From Herbaspirillum huttiense (GTDB lineage Bacteria; Pseudomonadota; Gammaproteobacteria; Burkholderiales; Burkholderiaceae_D), in assembly GCF_004367745.1 (NCBI RefSeq), contig NZ_CP037993.1:496001-560000 (forward strand): a stretch of 64,000 bases of DNA, in the 5' to 3' direction. Position 1 is the first letter of the stretch, and each line of letters begins with the position of its first letter. Positions 20,933-30,487 of the stretch are shown here, one piece after another. A model generated the notes under the pieces. It was not told the origin of the DNA. It was given only the letters and a program-made list of their open reading frames with translations, and searched no databases. The position numbers were made by a program, and so were the translations under genes.

Positions 20933-21040
20933 CCGCCAGCGGCCTTGCCGGCGCGCCAGGGCGGGCGCCGGGAGGGTGCGCGGGTGCAGCTTCCTTCCAC
21001 GGTTTTTCAGGTTTCCTTTTCCTTACCAGTCTTGCCTACC

Positions 21041-22612
21041 ATGATCAAACAAGCACTCATTTCCGTATCCGACAAGGCAGGCGTGCTCGACTTCGCGCGC
21101 GCACTGTCCGCCATGGGCGTCAACATCCTGTCCACCGGCGGCACCGCCAAGCTGCTGGCCGACAATGGCGTGCCGGTCACCGAAGTGGCCGACTACACCG
21201 GTTTCCCGGAAATGCTGGATGGCCGCGTGAAGACGCTGCATCCCAAGGTCCATGGCGGCATCCTGGCCCGTCGCGATTTCCCCGAGCACGTCGCTGCGCT
21301 GGAACAGCACGGCATCCCCACCATCGACATGGTGGTGGTGAACCTGTACCCGTTCCAGCAGACCGTGGCCAAGGATGAGTGCTCGCTGGAAGATGCGATC
21401 GAAAACATCGACATCGGCGGCCCGGCCATGCTGCGTTCCTCGGCCAAGAACCACAAGGACGTGATCGTCATCTGCGATCCCACCGATTATGAAGGCGTGC
21501 TGGCCGAGCTGAAGTCCGGTGGCGACCTGCCCTACGAAAAGCGCTTCGCGCTGGCCAAGAAGGTTTTCGCCCACACCGCCCAATACGATGGCGCCATCAC
21601 CAATTACTTCACCGCCCTGGGTGAAGACAAGCAGCACAGCACCCGCAGCGCCTACCCCGCGACCCTGAACCTTCATTTCGAGAAGGTCCAGGACATGCGC
21701 TACGGCGAGAACCCGCACCAGAGCGCTGCCTTCTACCGCGACATCAAGAAGGTCGATGGCGCGCTGGCCAACTACACCCAGCTGCAGGGCAAGGAACTGT
21801 CCTTCAACAACATCGCCGATGCCGATGCTGCCTGGGAATGCGTCAAGAGCTTCGACCCGGCCACGGAAGCAGCCTGCGTCATCATCAAGCACGCCAATCC
21901 CTGCGGCGTGGCCATCGGTGCCCACCCGCTGGAAGCCTACAGCAAGGCCCTGCAGACCGACCCGACCTCGGCCTTCGGCGGCATCATCGCCTTCAACCGC
22001 GAAGTGGACGCGGCAGCGGCCGAAGCGGTGGCCAAGCAATTCCTGGAAGTGCTGATCGCCCCGTCTTTCAGCGCTGAAGCCAAGCAGATCTTCGCTGCCA
22101 AGCAGAACGTGCGCCTGCTCGAAATCCCGCTGGGCACCGGTCTGAATGGCTACGACTTCAAGCGCGTCGGCGGTGGCCTGCTGGTGCAGTCGCCGGACGC
22201 CAAGAACGTGCTGCTGGCCGATGTGAAGGTGGTCAGCAAGAAGCAGCCGACCCAGCAGCAATTGCAGGATCTGATGTTCGCCTGGCGCGTGGCCAAGTTC
22301 GTCAAGTCCAATGCCATCGTGTTCTGCGGCAATGGCATGACCTTGGGCGTCGGTGCCGGCCAGATGAGCCGTATCGATTCCGCGCGCATCGCCTCCATCA
22401 AGGCGCAGAATGCCGGCCTGACCCTGGCCGGTTCGGCCGTGGCGTCGGATGCCTTCTTCCCGTTCCGCGATGGCCTGGATGTGGTGGTCGATGCCGGTGC
22501 CACCTGCGTCATCCACCCGGGTGGCTCCATGCGCGACCAGGAAGTCATCGATGCGGCCAATGAGCGTGATGTCGTCATGCTGCTGACGGGGACACGTCAC
22601 TTCCGTCACTGA
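21041..22612 (+). CDS. purH: Bifunctional AICAR transformylase / IMP cyclohydrolase
   Basis: Carries out the last two steps of purine synthesis: formylation of AICAR and ring closure to IMP. The 523-residue protein has an N-terminal MGS-like cyclohydrolase domain ([43 protein letters not shown]) and a C-terminal transformylase domain with the KHANPCG catalytic His, SAFGGI and the terminal [12 protein letters not shown] and TGTRHFRH. The ATG at 21041 starts the conserved sequence. A strong terminator follows directly. Confidence 0.97.
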
Positions 22613-22630
22613 TCGCTGCCAGATCCAACG

Positions 22631-22659
22631 AAAACGCCCGGCTTCATGCCGGGCGTTTT
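22631..22659 (+). terminator. Rho-independent terminator after purH
   Basis: AAAACGCCCGGC (22631-22642) pairs perfectly with GCCGGGCGTTTT (22648-22659), loop TTCAT. The symmetrical A/T ends make it usable from both strands, so it can also stop the regulator gene that ends at 22693 on the minus strand. Confidence 0.92.
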
Positions 22660-22692
22660 AGTTGGTGCTTCGTGTGCCGCAGTGCGCAGGGC

Positions 22693-23712
22693 TCAGCTGT
22701 TCTCGCTGATCATTCCTTCATGGATGGCAATGCGAGTCAAGGCCGCCTCAAACCGCTGCCGCGATTCCGAGGTCAGCTGCTGCAGGTATTGATGCAATTG
22801 TGCGTCAGCCACGTTGCGGTTGGCGCATTGCGCGCTGTAGCGCTCGAACTGCGACAGCTGCATCAGCAATTCCGCCACGTGGCGCGGGCACTCGCAGGCC
22901 ACCGTGGTGGACTGGTTGGCAAAGGCGATCAATTCATTGTCATCCCAGCGGCGCGGCGGCAGCGCCTTGTCGCCTGCCTCTTCATCGCGCGCCGGTGACG
23001 ACAGTGCCGCCAGGCCGCGCAGCCATTGCAGGATCACCACATCGGGCTGCGGCGCACGCAGCAGGCTGATGCCCACCGCCGCCAGCGTCTCGCACACGGC
23101 TTCGCTGGCAAATCCATACAGCACCGCCATCGGCAGCCCGCTCAGTGCCGGTGCCGAACTCTCCAGCGCGCCCAGCCAGCCGGCGTGCAACTGCGGCTCG
23201 TGCAGCAGCAGGGCATCCACTTCTTCCCGCTTCAAGGCCATGGCCGCCTGTTCGATGCTCTCGAACGGACCCAGCAACTGCAGCGGACGGCCCAGGCGCT
23301 GCAGCAGGCCGGGTTTGTCCAGGCGCTGCGCCAGGGTGGAGCCGATCACCGCCAGCCGCCATTGCCCCTGCACCGCTTCCGGTGGCGTCGGGCGGGCTGC
23401 GTGCAGTTCCGCGTGGGTGGCCGCCACCTGCTGCAACTGATCCATATCCAGTCCGGCCAGGCTGCCGATGGCGTGGCCCAGTTCGGTCAACTGCCGGATC
23501 AGCGCCAGGCGCCGCACATCGGCTTCCGAATACAGGCGCTGGCCGCTCGGTGACAGCTGGCCCTGGGTCAGCGCATAGCGGCGCTCCCACACCCGCAGCG
23601 TGGCCACCGGCATGCGCAGCATGCGCGCCACCGCGCCAGTGCGGCGCAAGGCTTCGCCAGCAGGTTTGTCGGCCGCAAGGGCAGGGGAAGAGGTCGATTG
23701 CGCAAGGCTCAT
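22693..23712 (-). CDS. MerR-family regulator, LitR/CarH-like but without cobalamin motif
   Basis: A 339-residue transcription factor. Residues 23-92 form a MerR winged helix (RTGAVARMLRMPVATLRVWERRYAL, then SGQRLYSEADVRRLALIRQL), closest in style to the LitR/CarH light regulators. The rest resembles their helical-bundle plus Rossmann-like sensor region (WRLAVIGSTLAQRL..., VDALLLHEPQLHAGWL), but I see no DxHxxG cobalamin signature. It may therefore be a class II LitR-type protein that needs a separate photosensor (inference). Start at 23712 follows a CCGGAG ribosome site; the longer frame to 23775 would run through its own promoter. Divergent from the photolyase operon, which it likely controls. 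Confidence 0.82.
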   Translation of the reverse strand: MSLAQSTSSPALAADKPAGEALRRTGAVARMLRMPVATLRVWERRYALTQGQLSPSGQRLYSEADVRRLALIRQLTELGHAIGSLAGLDMDQLQQVAATHAELHAARPTPPEAVQGQWRLAVIGSTLAQRLDKPGLLQRLGRPLQLLGPFESIEQAAMALKREEVDALLLHEPQLHAGWLGALESSAPALSGLPMAVLYGFASEAVCETLAAVGISLLRAPQPDVVILQWLRGLAALSSPARDEEAGDKALPPRRWDDNELIAFANQSTTVACECPRHVAELLMQLSQFERYSAQCANRNVADAQLHQYLQQLTSESRQRFEAALTRIAIHEGMISENS

Positions 23713-23743
23713 GATGGGCTCCGGTGAATCATGTTTGACACAG

Positions 23744-23784
23744 ATTATAGACGCTAATTTGGCGTCATGAGTCAAGTGTGACGC
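23744..23784. promoter_or_regulatory. MerR-type promoter and three-half-site operator between regulator and photolyase operon
   Basis: On the minus strand TTGACT (23770-23775) and TATAAT (23744-23749) are separated by 20 bp, the lengthened spacer typical of MerR-controlled promoters. The spacer holds a GACGC-N7-GCGTC dyad (23750-23766). A third half site at 23780-23784 makes a second dyad GCGTCA-N11-TGACGC (23762-23784) on the side of the photolyase operon. A plus-strand -10 (TACAAT, 23795-23800) lacks a good -35. Confidence 0.7.
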
Positions 23785-23808
23785 ATTTATTCAGTACAAT
23801 CCTGAGTC

Positions 23809-23985
23809 ATGAAACAGAAAAGCCAAGTCACCGGACATCGCGGCAACAAGGCGCACTTGCCCAGCAAGCCCTGCGCCGTGTGCGGCCTGCCCATGACCTG
23901 GCGGCGCGCCTGGGCCAAGAACTGGGACGAGGTCAAATACTGTTCCGAAGCCTGCCGCCGCAAGCGCGCCCACCCTGGCCTTTGA
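23809..23985 (+). CDS. DUF2256 small zinc-ribbon-like protein
   Basis: A 58-residue basic protein with two cysteine pairs (Cys22, Cys25 and Cys45, Cys49) arranged CX2C-X19-CX3C, and the conserved PSKPCAVCGLPMTWRRAW...WDEVKYCSEACRR pattern of DUF2256. Genes of this family frequently sit beside or are fused to cryptochrome/photolyase genes; the function is unknown. Its ATG lies only 9 bp after a TACAAT -10 box and has no Shine-Dalgarno sequence, so the transcript may be leaderless. The next gene starts 11 bp after its stop. Confidence 0.85.
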   Translation: MKQKSQVTGHRGNKAHLPSKPCAVCGLPMTWRRAWAKNWDEVKYCSEACRRKRAHPGL

Positions 23986-23996
23986 GGAGTCGAGCC

Positions 23997-25322
23997 ATGT
24001 ATCGCAAACATCAATTCGACCTGGTGCTGGAGTCCCCTTCCCCGGAAGACGCACCCGCCGCCCCTGCTGCTGTCGCTGCGCTCCCTGCACCACGACCGCT
24101 GGCGCTGCTGCCCTTGCTGCCGACCCTGGCCGCCGCGCGCGAGCGCATCGCCGCCGTGCGTCCCGGCGCCTATGCCCGCACCCGCAACAGCCTCGATGGG
24201 GCGGTGACCGGCTTGTCGCCCTATCTCACGCACGGTTTCGTCAGCCTGCGCGAGGTGCTGGCGGGCGTGTGCAGCCGCCAGGCGCTGGATGTGCAGCACA
24301 AGTTCGTCTATGAGCTGGGCTGGCGTGCCTTCTATCGCTACGTGTGGGCCAGGCGCGGGGCGCGCATCTTCGATTCGCTGCACGCCGGCCCGCTGCCGGA
24401 GTCGGCCTATGCGCGCGAACTGCCGGCCGATATCCGCGAAGCTGCCACCGGCCTGCCGGTGATCGACCAGGCCGTGCGCACCCTGTATGCCACCGGCACC
24501 CTGCACAACCACGCGCGCATGTGGCTGGCCAGCTATGTGGTGCATCTGCGCAAGGTGCATTGGCGTGCGGGGGCGGACTGGATGGTCGGCCATCTGCTGG
24601 ATGGCGACCTGGCCAGCAATCATCTGAGCTGGCAGTGGGTGGCCGGGACCGGCAGCCACAAGCCTTATCTGTTCAATGCCGAGAACGTGGCCAAGTACGC
24701 CCCGGACGAGTGGCACAGCCCAGGCACGGTGGTAGACACCTCATATGAAGTGTTGGGCGAAATCGCCCTCAATCCCGACCCGGTAGCCGCCGAACCCGCC
24801 CAGCGCGCGCGGGAACGCTGCAAGGAGCCGGCCCTGCTGCCAGTGCCACCTGAACATTTGGGCAGTTTGACCCCGGAGGCGGAAGCGGTAGCCGGACGTG
24901 ATGTCTGGCTGGTCCATCCGTGGAGCCTGGGCGAGTTGCCCGCCGATCTGCCGGCTGACACCATAGTGGTGGGACTGTATCTGTCTGACTTCCATCTGCT
25001 CTGGCCGTGGGACCAGCGCCGTTGGGAGTTCGTCGGTGCGCGCATGCGCGAGCTGACCTCGCTGTGCTGGCACGGCGACGCAGCCACCGTCGGCCGCGCC
25101 CTCAAGACTGCCCGCAGCGTTCGTTGTGTGGCCGATCCGCATCTGGCCCCCTGGCTGCCGCTGTGGGCACAATGCGTGGCAGCGCCGGAACTGTTCCCTG
25201 TGGTGGACAAGCCCAGCGACCTGTTCACCCAATGGTGGCGGCGCAGCACGCAAGGCCTGCAGAGCGCCGCCGAGCTGTTGGCGCGCACCGAGCGCAAGGA
25301 GCGGCGCGATGGCGGAGCCTGA
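23997..25322 (+). CDS. Photolyase-like FAD-binding protein with apparently permuted domains
   Basis: A 441-residue protein. The photolyase FAD-binding helical domain comes first (about residues 60-250): LSPYLTHGFVS, ELGWRAFYRYVW, GLPVIDQAVRTLYATGTLHNHARMWLAS in overlapping order, and DGDLASNHLSWQWVAGTGS (202-220) with the conserved Asn and WQW. The usual N-terminal alpha/beta antenna domain is absent from the front. Instead residues 301-385 (RDVWLVHPWSLGEL, TIVVGLYLSDFHLLWPWDQRRWEFV, WHGDAATVGRALK) look like a diverged version of that domain, placed after the FAD domain. GAGGAG at 23984-23989 fixes the start at 23997. Substrate (DNA lesion or signalling) is unknown. Confidence 0.8.
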   Translation: MYRKHQFDLVLESPSPEDAPAAPAAVAALPAPRPLALLPLLPTLAAARERIAAVRPGAYARTRNSLDGAVTGLSPYLTHGFVSLREVLAGVCSRQALDVQHKFVYELGWRAFYRYVWARRGARIFDSLHAGPLPESAYARELPADIREAATGLPVIDQAVRTLYATGTLHNHARMWLASYVVHLRKVHWRAGADWMVGHLLDGDLASNHLSWQWVAGTGSHKPYLFNAENVAKYAPDEWHSPGTVVDTSYEVLGEIALNPDPVAAEPAQRARERCKEPALLPVPPEHLGSLTPEAEAVAGRDVWLVHPWSLGELPADLPADTIVVGLYLSDFHLLWPWDQRRWEFVGARMRELTSLCWHGDAATVGRALKTARSVRCVADPHLAPWLPLWAQCVAAPELFPVVDKPSDLFTQWWRRSTQGLQSAAELLARTERKERRDGGA

Positions 25323-25731
25323 CCCTGACCCTCGTCCGCCACAGGAAGAGATTACCGTGCTGTATGACGGTGCCTGTCCGCTGTGCCGGCGCGAGATCGG
25401 CGTGTACCAGCGCGGCGCGGAGGATGCCCCGCTGCGCTTTTGTGATATCAGCCGCCCGGATCTGCCCGCCACAGAGCTTCCTGCGGGCATGACGCGCGAG
25501 CAGTTGCTGGCGCGCTTCCATGTGCGTCGCGCTGATGGCGTGGTCTTCAGCGGTGCCGAGGCCTTCGTGCAGTTGTGGGCCACCTTGCCTGGATGGCGCT
25601 GGCTGGCCCGGCTGGCGCGTCTGCCCGGCATGCTGTGGCTGATGGAGCGCAGCTATCGCGGCTTCCTGCGCGTGCGTCCGGCCGTGCAACGGCTGGTGGT
25701 GCGGCTCGAACGCCGCCAGGACCGAGGCTGA
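25309..25731 (+). CDS. DCC family thiol-disulfide oxidoreductase-like protein (DUF393)
   Basis: A 140-residue protein with the DUF393 signature LYDGACPLCRREIGVYQ, whose CxxC resembles a thioredoxin active site, followed by the typical later motif FSGAEAFVQLWATLPGWRWLARLARLPGML. No signal peptide, so cytoplasmic. DCC proteins often accompany photolyase and SDR genes in light-inducible clusters; the biochemical role is not known. The start overlaps the preceding photolyase-like gene by 14 bp, with AAGGAG at 25297-25302, and the next photolyase gene begins 1 bp after its stop. Confidence 0.85.
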   Translation: MAEPDPDPRPPQEEITVLYDGACPLCRREIGVYQRGAEDAPLRFCDISRPDLPATELPAGMTREQLLARFHVRRADGVVFSGAEAFVQLWATLPGWRWLARLARLPGMLWLMERSYRGFLRVRPAVQRLVVRLERRQDRG

Positions 25732-25732
25732 C

Positions 25733-27199
25733 ATGAGCGTCGGCCTGGTCTGGTTCAAGCGCGACCTGCGCTTGCGCGATCACGCGGCGCTGGCCGAGGC
25801 GGCGCGGTGTGAGCGTGCGTTTGCGGTCTTCATCATCGAGCCTGCATGGCTGCAGAGTTTTGAATGTGATCCGCGTCATGTGGATTTCCTCTTGCGCTCC
25901 GTGGCCCCCCTGCAGATCGAATTGAAGCAGCGCGGCCTGCCGTTGCTGGTGCGCATTGGCGAGGCGGTGCAGGTATTGGAATCTCTGCGCCGCGAGTGGG
26001 GCGTGACCCATCTCTTCAGCCACGAAGAAACCGGTCCGGCCTGGAGCTATGCGCGCGATATTTCGGTGAACCGCTGGAGCCGCATCCAGGGCGTGCAGTG
26101 GCAGGAGTTTCCTCAAACCGGTGTGGTGCGCCGCCTGCGCAGCCGCGATGGCTGGGCCGCGCGCTGGGTGCAGCGCATGGAGGCGGTGCAGATTGCCAAT
26201 CCTGTCGGCTTTCGTGCGCCGCAAGGGATGCAGCCCGACAAGCTGCCCACATTGACCGCACTGGGTTTGCCCGAGGCGCGCCTGCAACCGCCCGCCGGCG
26301 AGGCGGCAGCGTGGGATACGCTGCGCGCCTTCCTCGGTGGCGGCGGGCGCGATTACCGGCGCGGCATGTCCAGTCCGCTGACCGCACCCGACGCCTGCAG
26401 CCGGCTCAGCGCGCATCTGGCCTTCGGTACCATTTCCATGCGCAGCGTGCACCAGGCTACCGAGCTGGCCATCGAACACACGGCTGACCGCGAGCTGGCG
26501 TATGGCCTGCGCGGCTTTTCCAGTCGCCTGCGCTGGCATTGCCACTTCATGCAGAAGCTGGAAGACCAGCCCGATATCGAATGGCGCAACGTGGCGCGTT
26601 CGCTGGATGGCTTGCGTCCGGGCGATGGCGGTCCGTGGGGCGTGGAGGCGCAGGCGCGTTTCGATGCCTGGTGCGAAGGCCGCACCGGCTATCCCATGAT
26701 CGATGCCTGCATGCGCCAGCTGTGCGCCACCGGCTGGCTCAACTTCCGCATGCGCGCCATGCTGGTCAGCTTTGCCGCCTATCACCTGTGGCTGCACTGG
26801 CGCGCACCGGGGCTGTTCCTGGCGCGGCAGTTCCTGGATTTCGAACCGGGCATCCACTGGAGCCAGATGCAGATGCAATCCGGCACCACCGGCATCAATA
26901 CCCTGCGCATCTATTCGCCGGCCAAGCAGGCGCGCGATCATGATCCGCTGGGCGAGTACGTGCGGCGCTGGGTGCCGGAAGTCGGTACGGCGGCTTATCC
27001 CGACCCCATCGTGGACGAGAAGACGGCGCTCAAGCAGGCCAAGGATGCCCTCTACGGCCAGCGCAGCAGCAGTAGCGCGCGCGCGGAAGCCGATGCCATC
27101 CAGGAGAAGCACGGCTCGTGCAAGAGCGGCCTGCCCTCGACCACCCAGCGCCGCACGCGCCAGAAAATGGCGGATCCGGGGCAGGGCGTCTTGTTCTGA
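25733..27199 (+). CDS. Cryptochrome/photolyase family protein with atypical active-site loop
   Basis: A 488-residue flavoprotein of standard architecture: an N-terminal alpha/beta domain (LVWFKRDLRLRDHAAL) and a C-terminal FAD domain (GGGRDYRRGMSSPLTAPDACSRLSAHLAFGTIS in pieces, GYPMIDACMRQL, GWLNFRMRAMLVSF). In the loop that in CPD photolyases reads DGDLAANNGGWQWAASTG, this protein has DFEPGIHWSQMQMQSGTTG (about 370-386), so the flavin-proximal Asn appears to be His and the WQW Trp residues appear to be QMQ. It may repair another lesion or act as a photoreceptor. Last gene of the light-responsive operon. Confidence 0.85.
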   Translation: MSVGLVWFKRDLRLRDHAALAEAARCERAFAVFIIEPAWLQSFECDPRHVDFLLRSVAPLQIELKQRGLPLLVRIGEAVQVLESLRREWGVTHLFSHEETGPAWSYARDISVNRWSRIQGVQWQEFPQTGVVRRLRSRDGWAARWVQRMEAVQIANPVGFRAPQGMQPDKLPTLTALGLPEARLQPPAGEAAAWDTLRAFLGGGGRDYRRGMSSPLTAPDACSRLSAHLAFGTISMRSVHQATELAIEHTADRELAYGLRGFSSRLRWHCHFMQKLEDQPDIEWRNVARSLDGLRPGDGGPWGVEAQARFDAWCEGRTGYPMIDACMRQLCATGWLNFRMRAMLVSFAAYHLWLHWRAPGLFLARQFLDFEPGIHWSQMQMQSGTTGINTLRIYSPAKQARDHDPLGEYVRRWVPEVGTAAYPDPIVDEKTALKQAKDALYGQRSSSSARAEADAIQEKHGSCKSGLPSTTQRRTRQKMADPGQGVLF

Positions 27200-27200
27200 C

Positions 27201-27235
27201 GCGGGAAGCCCGCCTGATCGGTTAGACTGGCGGGC
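27201..27235 (+). promoter_or_regulatory. Mutually exclusive hairpins directly before ruvC
   Basis: GCGGG-AAG-CCCGC (27201-27213) and GCCCGCC (27208-27214) with GGCGGGC (27229-27235) share the CCCGC strand. The second stem ends one base before the ruvC ATG and would bury its GGCGGG ribosome site. Confidence 0.5.
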
Positions 27236-27774
27236 ATGAAAATCCTCGGTATCGACCCTGGCTTGCGCACCACCGGTTTCGGGGTCATCCACAAGCAGGG
27301 CAACACGCTCTCCTATATCGCTTCCGGCACCATCAAGACGCCGGATGGCGACCTGCCTTCACGCCTGAAGGTGATCCTGGCCAGCGTCGGCGAAGTGGTG
27401 AAGTCCTATGCACCGGACTGCGCGGCCATCGAAAAGGTGTTCGTCAACGTCAATCCGCAATCCACCCTGCTGCTGGGGCAGGCGCGCGGCGCGGCCATTT
27501 GCGCGCTGGTGGCCGCCGACCTGGCGGTAGCCGAATACACGGCCTTGCAGGTCAAGCAGGCCGTGGCCGGCCATGGACGCGCCCAGAAGGCGCAGGTGCA
27601 GGAGATGGTGGCGCGGCTGCTGAAGCTGCCCGGCCTGCCGGGCACCGACGCCGCCGATGCGCTGGGCGTGGCAATCTGCCATGCGCATGGGGGAGGAGTC
27701 TTGTCGGACCTCGGGGCGCTGGCCCCGGCGCTGGCGCGCAAGGGCATCCGCATGCGCGGCGGGCGTCTGGTCGG

Positions 27775-27778
<4 letters not shown>
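27236..27778 (+). CDS. ruvC: Holliday junction resolvase RuvC
   Basis: Dimeric endonuclease that cuts Holliday junctions processed by RuvAB. The 180-residue protein keeps the four acidic catalytic residues at the E. coli positions: Asp7 ([12 protein letters not shown]), Glu66 (AIEKVF), Asp138 and Asp141 ([14 protein letters not shown]). It is separated from ruvAB by a DUF808 gene on the opposite strand and shows no LexA box of its own. Its stop overlaps the end of that convergent gene by 4 bp. Confidence 0.97.
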
Positions 27779-28716
<938 letters not shown>

Positions 28717-28755
28717 GTTTTTCCTTTGTCTTCATCTCTGAGGGTGGCTTGGATA

Positions 28756-28771
28756 CTGTTTATCCGAACAG
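28756..28771 (+). promoter_or_regulatory. LexA (SOS) box of ruvAB
   Basis: CTGT-TTATCCGA-ACAG fits the CTGT-N8-ACAG LexA operator, with one further symmetrical A/T pair outside. It lies just upstream of a -10-like TATCAT (28777-28782) followed by CGCGGGATTA, so bound LexA would block RNA polymerase. The ruvA ATG is 58 bp downstream of the box. Confidence 0.85.
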
Positions 28772-28828
28772 TGCTGTATCATCGCGGGATTATCACAGAA
28801 GCTGCCTCCCACGCACATCCCTGACGCC

Positions 28829-29407
28829 ATGATCGGTCGCCTCTCCGGAATTCTTCTAGAAAAAATCCCCCCGAACCTGCTGGTCGACTGCCAGGGCGTC
28901 GGTTACGAAGTGGCCGTGCCCATGAGCACCTACTACAACCTGCCGGGCCTGGGCGAGAAGGTCACGCTGCTGACCCATCTGGCCATCCGCGAGGATGCGC
29001 ACATCCTGTTCGGGTTTGGGACCGCCGAAGAACGCAATACGTTCAAGGAGCTCATCAAGATTTCCGGCGTGGGGGCGCGCACGGCGCTATCCATCCTCTC
29101 CGGCATGTCGGTGGCCGACCTGGCCCAGGCCGTGACCCTGCAGGAAGCCGGCCGCCTGACCCGCGTGCCCGGCATCGGCAAGAAGACCGCCGAACGCCTG
29201 CTGCTGGAACTGAAGGGCAAGCTCGGTGCCGATCTTGGTGCGGTGGCCGGCGTGGTCCACAGCGACGCCTCGGCCGACATCCTCAACGCCCTGCTGGCGC
29301 TGGGCTATTCGGACAAGGAAGCGACCCTGGCCATGAAGCAGGTGCCCAAGGACAGCAGCGTCTCGGACGGCATCAAGCTGGCCCTGAAGGCGCTCTCCAA
29401 GGGCTGA
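28829..29407 (+). CDS. ruvA: Holliday junction branch-migration protein RuvA
   Basis: Tetrameric junction-binding protein that loads RuvB. The 192-residue sequence has domain I ([28 protein letters not shown] in pieces), two helix-hairpin-helix motifs ([19 protein letters not shown] and [20 protein letters not shown]) and the C-terminal UBA-like domain III ([19 protein letters not shown]) that contacts RuvB. Expression should be damage-inducible through the LexA box at 28756. ruvB follows 24 bp later. Confidence 0.97.
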
Positions 29408-29431
29408 GCCCGGCCAGACAAGGATTAGAGC

Positions 29432-30487
29432 ATGAGCATCCAGACCGACGATTTCTCCGAACAGCGCATCATCTCCGCCACCCCGGCCTCGGCCAACGAG
29501 GAAGCCATCGAGCGCGCCCTGCGGCCCAAGCAGCTGGACGAATACGTCGGCCAGGAAAAGGTGCGCGCCCAGCTCGAAATCTTCATTTCGGCCGCCCGCA
29601 AGCGTGGCGAGCCGCTCGACCACACCTTGCTGTTCGGCCCGCCCGGCCTGGGCAAGACCACCATGGCCCACATCATCGCCCGCGAAATGGGCGTGAACCT
29701 GCGCCAGACCTCGGGCCCCGTGCTGGAGCGCGCGGGCGACCTGGCTGCGCTGCTGACCAATCTCGAAGCCAATGACGTGCTCTTCATCGACGAGATCCAC
29801 CGCATGTCGCCGGTGGTGGAGGAAATCCTCTACCCGGCGCTGGAGGATTATCAGATCGACATCATGATCGGCGAAGGCCCGGCCGCCCGTTCGGTGCGCC
29901 TGGACCTGCAGCCTTTCACGCTGGTGGGGGCGACCACCCGTGCCGGCATGCTGACCAATCCGCTGCGCGACCGCTTCGGCATCGTCGCCCGGCTGGAGTT
30001 CTACACCCCGCCCGAGCTGGCCCGCATCGTCACGCGCAGCGCCGGCTTGCTCAATGCCCCCATTGTCGAGGAAGGCGCGCTGGAAATCGCCCGCCGCAGC
30101 CGGGGCACCCCGCGTATCGCCAACCGCCTGCTGCGCCGCGTGCGCGACTATGCTGAGGTCAAGGGGGAGGGCCGCATCACCCGCGAGATGGCCGATGCCG
30201 CCCTGGTGATGCTGGACGTGGACCCGGTCGGCTTCGACCTGATGGACCGCAAGCTGCTGGAGGCAGTGCTCTTCAAGTTCGGCGGTGGGCCGGTCGGGCT
30301 GGACAACCTGGCGGCGGCCATCGGTGAAGAACGCGACACCATCGAAGACGTGCTGGAGCCCTACCTGATCCAGCAAGGCTACCTGCAGCGCACCCCGCGC
30401 GGGCGCATCGCCACGGGCCTGGCCTATCAGCATTTCGGCGTGACCGCGCCGCAAACCGGCCCGAACGGTGAACTCTGGGGGGCATGA
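29432..30487 (+). CDS. ruvB: Holliday junction branch-migration ATPase RuvB
   Basis: Hexameric AAA+ motor that drives branch migration. The 351-residue protein has Walker A GPPGLGKT (69-76), Walker [10 protein letters not shown], sensor 1 [18 protein letters not shown] including the arginine finger region, and a C-terminal winged helix ([14 protein letters not shown]). Co-transcribed with ruvA. Its stop codon overlaps the ATG of a possible 34-codon frame (ATGA). Confidence 0.97.

Follow-up and report, generated by a model that had tools for sequence, protein, structure and literature searches.

An inverted photolyase and a remodelled photolyase homologue behind a probably light-responsive MerR-type switch in Herbaspirillum huttiense

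The window analysed here (G000:C1:496001-560000) covers 64 kb of the 5.69-Mb single-contig genome of Herbaspirillum huttiense and carries a compact cluster of five genes, two of which encode photolyase homologues. A MerR-type regulator of 339 residues, called REG below (22693..23712, minus strand), with a LitR/CarH-like winged helix and no recognisable B12 domain, is divergent from four genes of the plus strand. These encode a small Cys-rich DUF2256 protein of 58 residues (23809..23985), an inverted photolyase of the NewPHL type of 441 residues, PHL (23997..25322), a thiol-disulfide oxidoreductase-like DCC (DUF393) protein of 140 residues (25309..25731) and a second photolyase homologue of 488 residues, PHR (25733..27199), with normal domain order and a remodelled active site. 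The operon junctions are 11, -14 and 1 bp, and the 96 bp from REG to DUF2256 (23713..23808) form a predicted divergent promoter/operator region. In Pfam, REG matched MerR_1 (E 3.2e-14), the small protein DUF2256 (E 1.3e-21), PHL FAD_binding_7 alone (E 2.8e-25), the DCC protein DCC1-like (E 1.1e-24) and PHR both DNA_photolyase (6.5e-26) and FAD_binding_7 (3.1e-52). NCBIfam agrees with Pfam on the five identities: MerR, DUF2256, FAD_binding_7-only PHL, DCC1-like and full photolyase. A previous sequence-only reading of this DNA had described the same five genes, divergent regulator and gaps, all of which are confirmed by the coordinates and the Pfam matches.

The domain order of PHL is inverted. 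The catalytic domain binding flavin adenine dinucleotide (FAD) comes first (residues 36-268, 24102..24800, plus strand) and is followed by an alpha/beta half of about 150 residues (residues 295-441, 24879..25319, plus strand) related to the N-terminal antenna domain of photolyases. PHL had previously been taken for an FAD-domain photolyase homologue, which the FAD_binding_7 match bears out, and this second domain had been overlooked. Compared by profile with the photolyase antenna domain, the C-terminal domain gave a strong signal for Deinococcus homologues and a weaker one for PHL (E 0.0034); against the first canonical photolyase set, made of 16 loci and the genome's own enzyme, PHL reached E 0.026. 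In structure, the PHL C-domain came nearest to the N-domains of FeS-type photolyases, and Foldseek with this domain alone returned nothing at E<=0.001. Judging by the Deinococcus homologues, the domain with which inverted photolyases end is a relocated normal antenna domain and not a new one. Two other comparisons with the PHL C-domain were discarded: the PHR N-domain showed no signal of kinship to it (E 0.56), and the FeS-type photolyase profile gave E 0.58 with the aligned part outside the FeS-type N-domain. A truncated or frameshifted photolyase is ruled out, since DUF2256 is only 11 bp away and relatives in many genomes share the architecture. The nearest named relatives of the window are Herbaspirillum loci, PHL being 91% and 89% identical to its counterparts at L032 and L033, respectively.

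Some Deinococcus homologues have features of their own. In Deinococcus sp. QL22 (L261:2836-4127) the FAD lobe and the alpha/beta lobe are split into two overlapping genes. Two Deinococcus inverted photolyases (L223:4857-6230 and L224:3866-5236) carry between the lobes a C-x2-C ... C-P-F stretch, similar by eye to the Cys-rich end of FeS-type photolyases and absent from the window's PHL.

Active-site residues of PHL were counted in 32 of the 64 aligned rows, using E. coli photolyase numbering; the E. coli residues compared here in PHL and PHR are presumed to have the roles generally assigned to them. Equivalents of E274, W277, R278, N341, R344, D372, D374, W382 and W384 are retained in 31 or 32 of the 32 rows, and that of M345 in 27, with Leu in the other 5. 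Every row has His at R342 and Val at T234, a gap at the third Trp-triad position, and the flavin-facing Asn (N208 in PHL). A Trp dyad, W212 and W189, is present. PHL also falls on one side of a branch (100/99) with inverted proteins of Ruegeria, Asticcacaulis and Peteryoungia, used as proxies for the named NewPHLs.

These features are those of a described class. NewPHLs/SPLs are presented as enzymes of inverted domain topology that repair cyclobutane pyrimidine dimers (CPD) in single-stranded DNA (PMC13274461, citing Emmerich et al. 2020), the Dinoroseobacter NewPHL as having a Trp dyad (PMC8948257) and NewPHL as conserving a flavin-facing Asn (PMC12083526). The inversion itself is thus already published and not new to PHL. 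Because its domain order is the published one, PHL is, judged from its sequence, probably a new branch of the known inverted NewPHL/SPL class. The absence of the third Trp and the invariant His at R342, together with the normal photolyase already encoded elsewhere in the genome, could instead point to a cryptochrome-like receptor or a dark-active flavoprotein in which the class I residues would be inherited and unused. We find this improbable, as the equivalents of E274, W277, N341 and W384 are almost invariant and that of M345 is mostly kept, the Dinoroseobacter enzyme likewise has only a dyad, and the class is described as repairing CPDs in single-stranded DNA.

PHR presents a different picture. 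Its domain order is normal, PF00875 then PF03441, and across 20 aligned relatives the dimer-binding and Trp-chain residues of class I CPD photolyases are not conserved. E274 is replaced by Arg, N341 by Phe, M345 by Ala, N378 by His and W384 by Met in 20/20 rows, and R278 by His in 19/20; W382 is lost in all 20. W277, R344, W359 and D372 are retained. A relative from Persicobacter is 35% identical to PHR over almost its full length. As far as these alignments tell, PHR has the photolyase fold and some of the Trp path, and lacks what we take to be the dimer-binding site. Since residues for dimer binding and electron transfer are replaced, PHR would most likely carry out a different, non-CPD flavin photochemistry, or signalling. 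The 'unknown chemistry' formerly proposed for the pathway therefore does not apply to PHL, which is of a known type, and is retained for PHR, the atypical one. PHR represents a conserved family of photolyase fold from which the presumed repair residues have gone, yet it is maintained next to an inverted enzyme that still has them. PHR is therefore a good place to seek new flavin photochemistry.

The DNA-binding MerR_1 domain of REG (Pfam; residues 24-83, 23464..23643, minus strand) has its nearest PDB profile matches in CarH-type 5c8d and 3whp (E 1.4e-9), over the DNA-binding domain only. At E<=1, REG matched no cobalamin domain, so that the earlier description of a LitR/CarH-like regulator without such a domain, facing the operon, holds. 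Among the members of the REG alignment, checked for the B12-binding_2 helical bundle that class II retains, B12 families matched 0/17 at E<=5, in a comparison that had no known B12-free (class II) LitR as control. The C-terminal part contains a candidate cofactor or metal site, C273-x-C275-x2-H278 ... C296 ... H307 (22792..22896, minus strand), invariant in 17/17 rows of one alignment and 19/19 of another.

Homologues of REG were found in five plasmid records from Burkholderia, Caballeronia and one Methylomagnum, with 92-94% coverage and 33-39% identity, and the neighbours of three were examined. Those of Burkholderia anthina and Caballeronia adjoin folE, sigma factor and SDR genes; the B. anthina locus also has a photolyase gene and the Caballeronia locus a photoactive yellow protein gene. 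Beside the Methylomagnum homologue there was no folE, sigma factor, SDR, photolyase or photoactive yellow protein gene. Class III LitR, according to PMC9758184, occurs mainly in Burkholderia and shows a light-dependent absorption change of unknown basis, for which a novel mechanism is suggested. REG has a LitR-type helix-turn-helix, a C-terminus unlike B12 domains and a Burkholderia-type distribution (with the one homologue in Methylomagnum). With the B. anthina and Caballeronia homologues standing in for the LitR of B. multivorans, REG is probably nearer to class III than to class II.

The Cys/His domain is also found in other settings. The genome encodes a REG paralogue with the same motif (L148, G000:C1:1526815-1527777), located by eye between two chemoreceptor-like genes; counterparts of the remaining operon proteins were not found in its 14.5-kb stretch, and the region upstream of it has no 11-bp repeat pair. 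Four stand-alone proteins of 104-112 residues (L255-L258) consist solely of this domain, with no DNA-binding part. In one genome such a gene lies between an amidase (gatA-like) gene and gatB (Pfam); in a second genome it neighbours, by eye, a gatB-like gene. Given that the same domain occurs in the chemoreceptor-side paralogue and in stand-alone proteins, the motif is a candidate cofactor site for which a general metal- or redox-binding role is equally possible. Along with the invariance of the motif, these proteins would suit a REG that senses redox state, metal or singlet oxygen through its C-domain, the operon then answering photo-oxidative or oxidative stress and not light. We consider this rather unlikely: the REG family is associated with photolyases, folE and a photoactive yellow protein gene, and the absorption of class III LitR is reported to depend on light (PMC9758184).

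The 96-bp region contains two direct-repeat pairs of 11-bp period, a feature absent from the sequence-only reading: TGAATC-N5-TGACAC (23725..23741, plus strand) and TGAGTC-N5-TGACGC (23768..23784, plus strand), the latter inside an inverted repeat GCGTCA...TGACGC (23762-23784). The upstream regions of 17 REG-family genes were then compared; the window and three others are from Herbaspirillum, and four of 20 REG loci were left out. With a pattern framed after the sequences were read, TG[AC]NN[CT], 32 pairs of 11-bp period were counted, against 2.0 +/- 1.5 expected (300 shuffles, maximum 8) and at most 9 at any other spacing from 6 to 33 bp; at least one such pair was present in 16/17 regions. 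With the tighter TGANNC, 14 pairs had the 11-bp period and no other spacing exceeded 5. The strict pair pattern occurs twice in the 64-kb window, both times within the 96-bp region. Genome-wide, TGARTCRNNNTTGANNC is found at 4 places; the three others have neighbouring genes with no obvious connection. The surroundings of the FeS-type photolyase, the canonical photolyase and the REG paralogue gave no strict pair. A promoter scan of the 96-bp region gave no sigma-70 match. CarH is described as binding tandem 11-bp repeats (PMC9304148). Class II LitR sites are TGTACA-N12-TGTACA (PMC9758184), and none was found in the 96-bp region even at up to 3 mismatches. With 11-bp repeats in their place, the class II label previously given to REG is not supported. 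Together, the Cys/His motif and the operator repeats would narrow the question of how a B12-free LitR of the Burkholderia type senses light to a few residues and sites.

Light could also be perceived elsewhere. A short LOV protein acts as anti-repressor for the B12-free class II LitR (PMC9758184), and a separate photoreceptor might remove REG from DNA in the same manner. The candidate is a short BLUF protein (E 3.8e-31; L264, G000:C1:5611846-5612121), the only one detected in this genome, whose gene lies a few bp behind the GTP cyclohydrolase I gene (folE) in the same direction, making it a possible light input. This alternative is doubtful, as the BLUF gene is distant from the locus and its 7-kb surroundings contain no strict 11-bp pair. 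The genome further encodes one FeS-type and one canonical photolyase, both away from the locus. The FeS-type gene (L116:5281-9611) is preceded by chalcone-isomerase-like and MFS transporter genes, and followed by a gene whose product joins a MerR-like helix-turn-helix to a receiver domain; neither a REG-type match nor a strict 11-bp pair was found in this stretch.

Neighbourhoods of PHL homologues were counted in one scan of the best 80 of 123 loci, 75 from outside Herbaspirillum and 5 from within, by single-sequence searches that may miss distant copies. Outside Herbaspirillum, 34 of the 72 loci with enough sequence have a FeS-type photolyase gene no more than 600 bp upstream of PHL, a frequent addition that had not been noticed before, and DUF2256 stands beside it in 22 of 62. 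DCC follows PHL immediately in 7/70, whereas PHR and REG are present anywhere in 22/75 and 19/75, respectively. PHL and PHR are adjacent in some Burkholderiales. In Persicobacter JZB09, PHL-like, PHR-like and FeS-type genes are consecutive, and P. psychrovividus has PHL-like then PHR-like only, in the stretch examined. The 5 Herbaspirillum loci keep the gene order of the window. In two of them (L035 and L036) DUF2256 is apparently broken or displaced, the other four genes being in order, which fits the loss of the usual FeS-photolyase neighbour. In a search of 8 genomes of the genus, including the window's own, a near-full-length PHL was found in 7, one of them (G129) with an internal stop, and only a weak photolyase match in the eighth (G142). 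The PHL C-domain was detected in 40/399 genomes of the order (16/158 genera) and in 1/398 genomes drawn from the phylum, the one being the window's own. Among the literature matches listed, none described this gene set in its title or the start of its abstract.

The cluster is flanked by purH and ruvC (window 20945-30484). As ruvC begins 36 bp past the end of PHR on the same strand, Holliday-junction genes may share the PHR transcript.

Do the operon's genes work together? The partner sets of PHL differ widely between loci, the genome's FeS-type photolyase is at another locus and DUF2256 appears disrupted or shifted in two Herbaspirillum loci, as if independent light-response genes had been placed under one switch, DUF2256 being a leftover of a lost FeS-photolyase gene. 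This is a sizeable possibility, falling somewhat short of even odds. It must be set against junctions that overlap or measure 1-11 bp, the direct succession of PHL and PHR in both Persicobacter records, with the FeS-type gene next in one, and the PHL/PHR adjacency in some Burkholderiales.

The reading that we favour, as a whole and with a probability of roughly 0.6, is a light/UV-response operon comprising the REG switch, PHL, PHR and two helpers. The locus itself is real, and light control of the operon is likely. Gene order, the domain inversion, the conserved residues, the operator repeats and the partial synteny are read from the sequence, whereas light control, repression by REG and the enzymatic activities are inferred. 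In the dark, REG, which as a LitR/CarH relative comes nearest to the B12-free class III type, would most likely sit on the 11-bp repeats of the 96-bp region and repress the operon, perhaps also its own gene. Light, sensed by REG or by a separate photoreceptor, would release it. PHL would then act as a flavin photolyase, likely in CPD repair and, by analogy, preferring single-stranded DNA, and PHR as a photolyase-fold flavoprotein, most likely in other flavin photochemistry or in signalling. Two small helpers would complete the set: the DCC thiol-disulfide protein and DUF2256, whose gene in relatives is often next to one for a FeS-type photolyase. The stand-alone copies of the REG C-domain argue that the Cys/His motif is not light-specific. 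Although the conserved neighbourhood predicted beforehand recurs partly in other Burkholderiales, none of the five partners was found at 15 of the 39 PHL loci with at least 7 kb upstream and at least 5 kb downstream. A bolder version is a long shot: REG would be a new photoreceptor-repressor with a light-sensitive cofactor in its Cys3-His2 domain, and PHL and PHR, often with a FeS-type photolyase, would form one photochemical pathway in Burkholderiales and Bacteroidota. With an inverted photolyase and a remodelled second one behind a probably light-responsive switch, the locus allows direct tests of both the light input and the unusual second enzyme.

Compared with known systems, REG resembles LitR/CarH in its MerR winged helix, closest to CarH, and in 11-bp direct repeats like those of CarH operators; it differs by a TGANTC-like half-site, not TnnACA or TGTACA, and by a C-terminal Cys/His domain with a candidate cofactor site. 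It is like class III LitR in having no recognisable B12 domain and in the light-type neighbours of 2/3 plasmid homologues examined. The FeS-BCP/CryB prokaryotic (6-4) photolyases are related to the locus through genes that often adjoin DUF2256 and PHL in relatives and through N-domains to which the PHL C-domain is structurally nearest; they differ in being absent from the operon, the genome's single copy lying at another locus, and in giving no profile match to that domain. PHL shares with NewPHL/SPL the FAD domain first and alpha/beta domain last, the Trp dyad, the conserved flavin-contacting Asn and an FAD-domain clade common with alphaproteobacterial inverted proteins, stand-ins for the named NewPHLs. 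In contrast to them, its C-domain is too diverged for a profile match to the alphaproteobacterial C-domain, and it shares its operon, under a MerR switch, with another photolyase homologue. With the class I CPD photolyase E. coli Phr, PHL has most active-site residues in common, in inverted domains, whereas PHR has replaced E274, R278, N341, M345, N378, W382 and W384 and keeps the two-domain order and fold of that enzyme.

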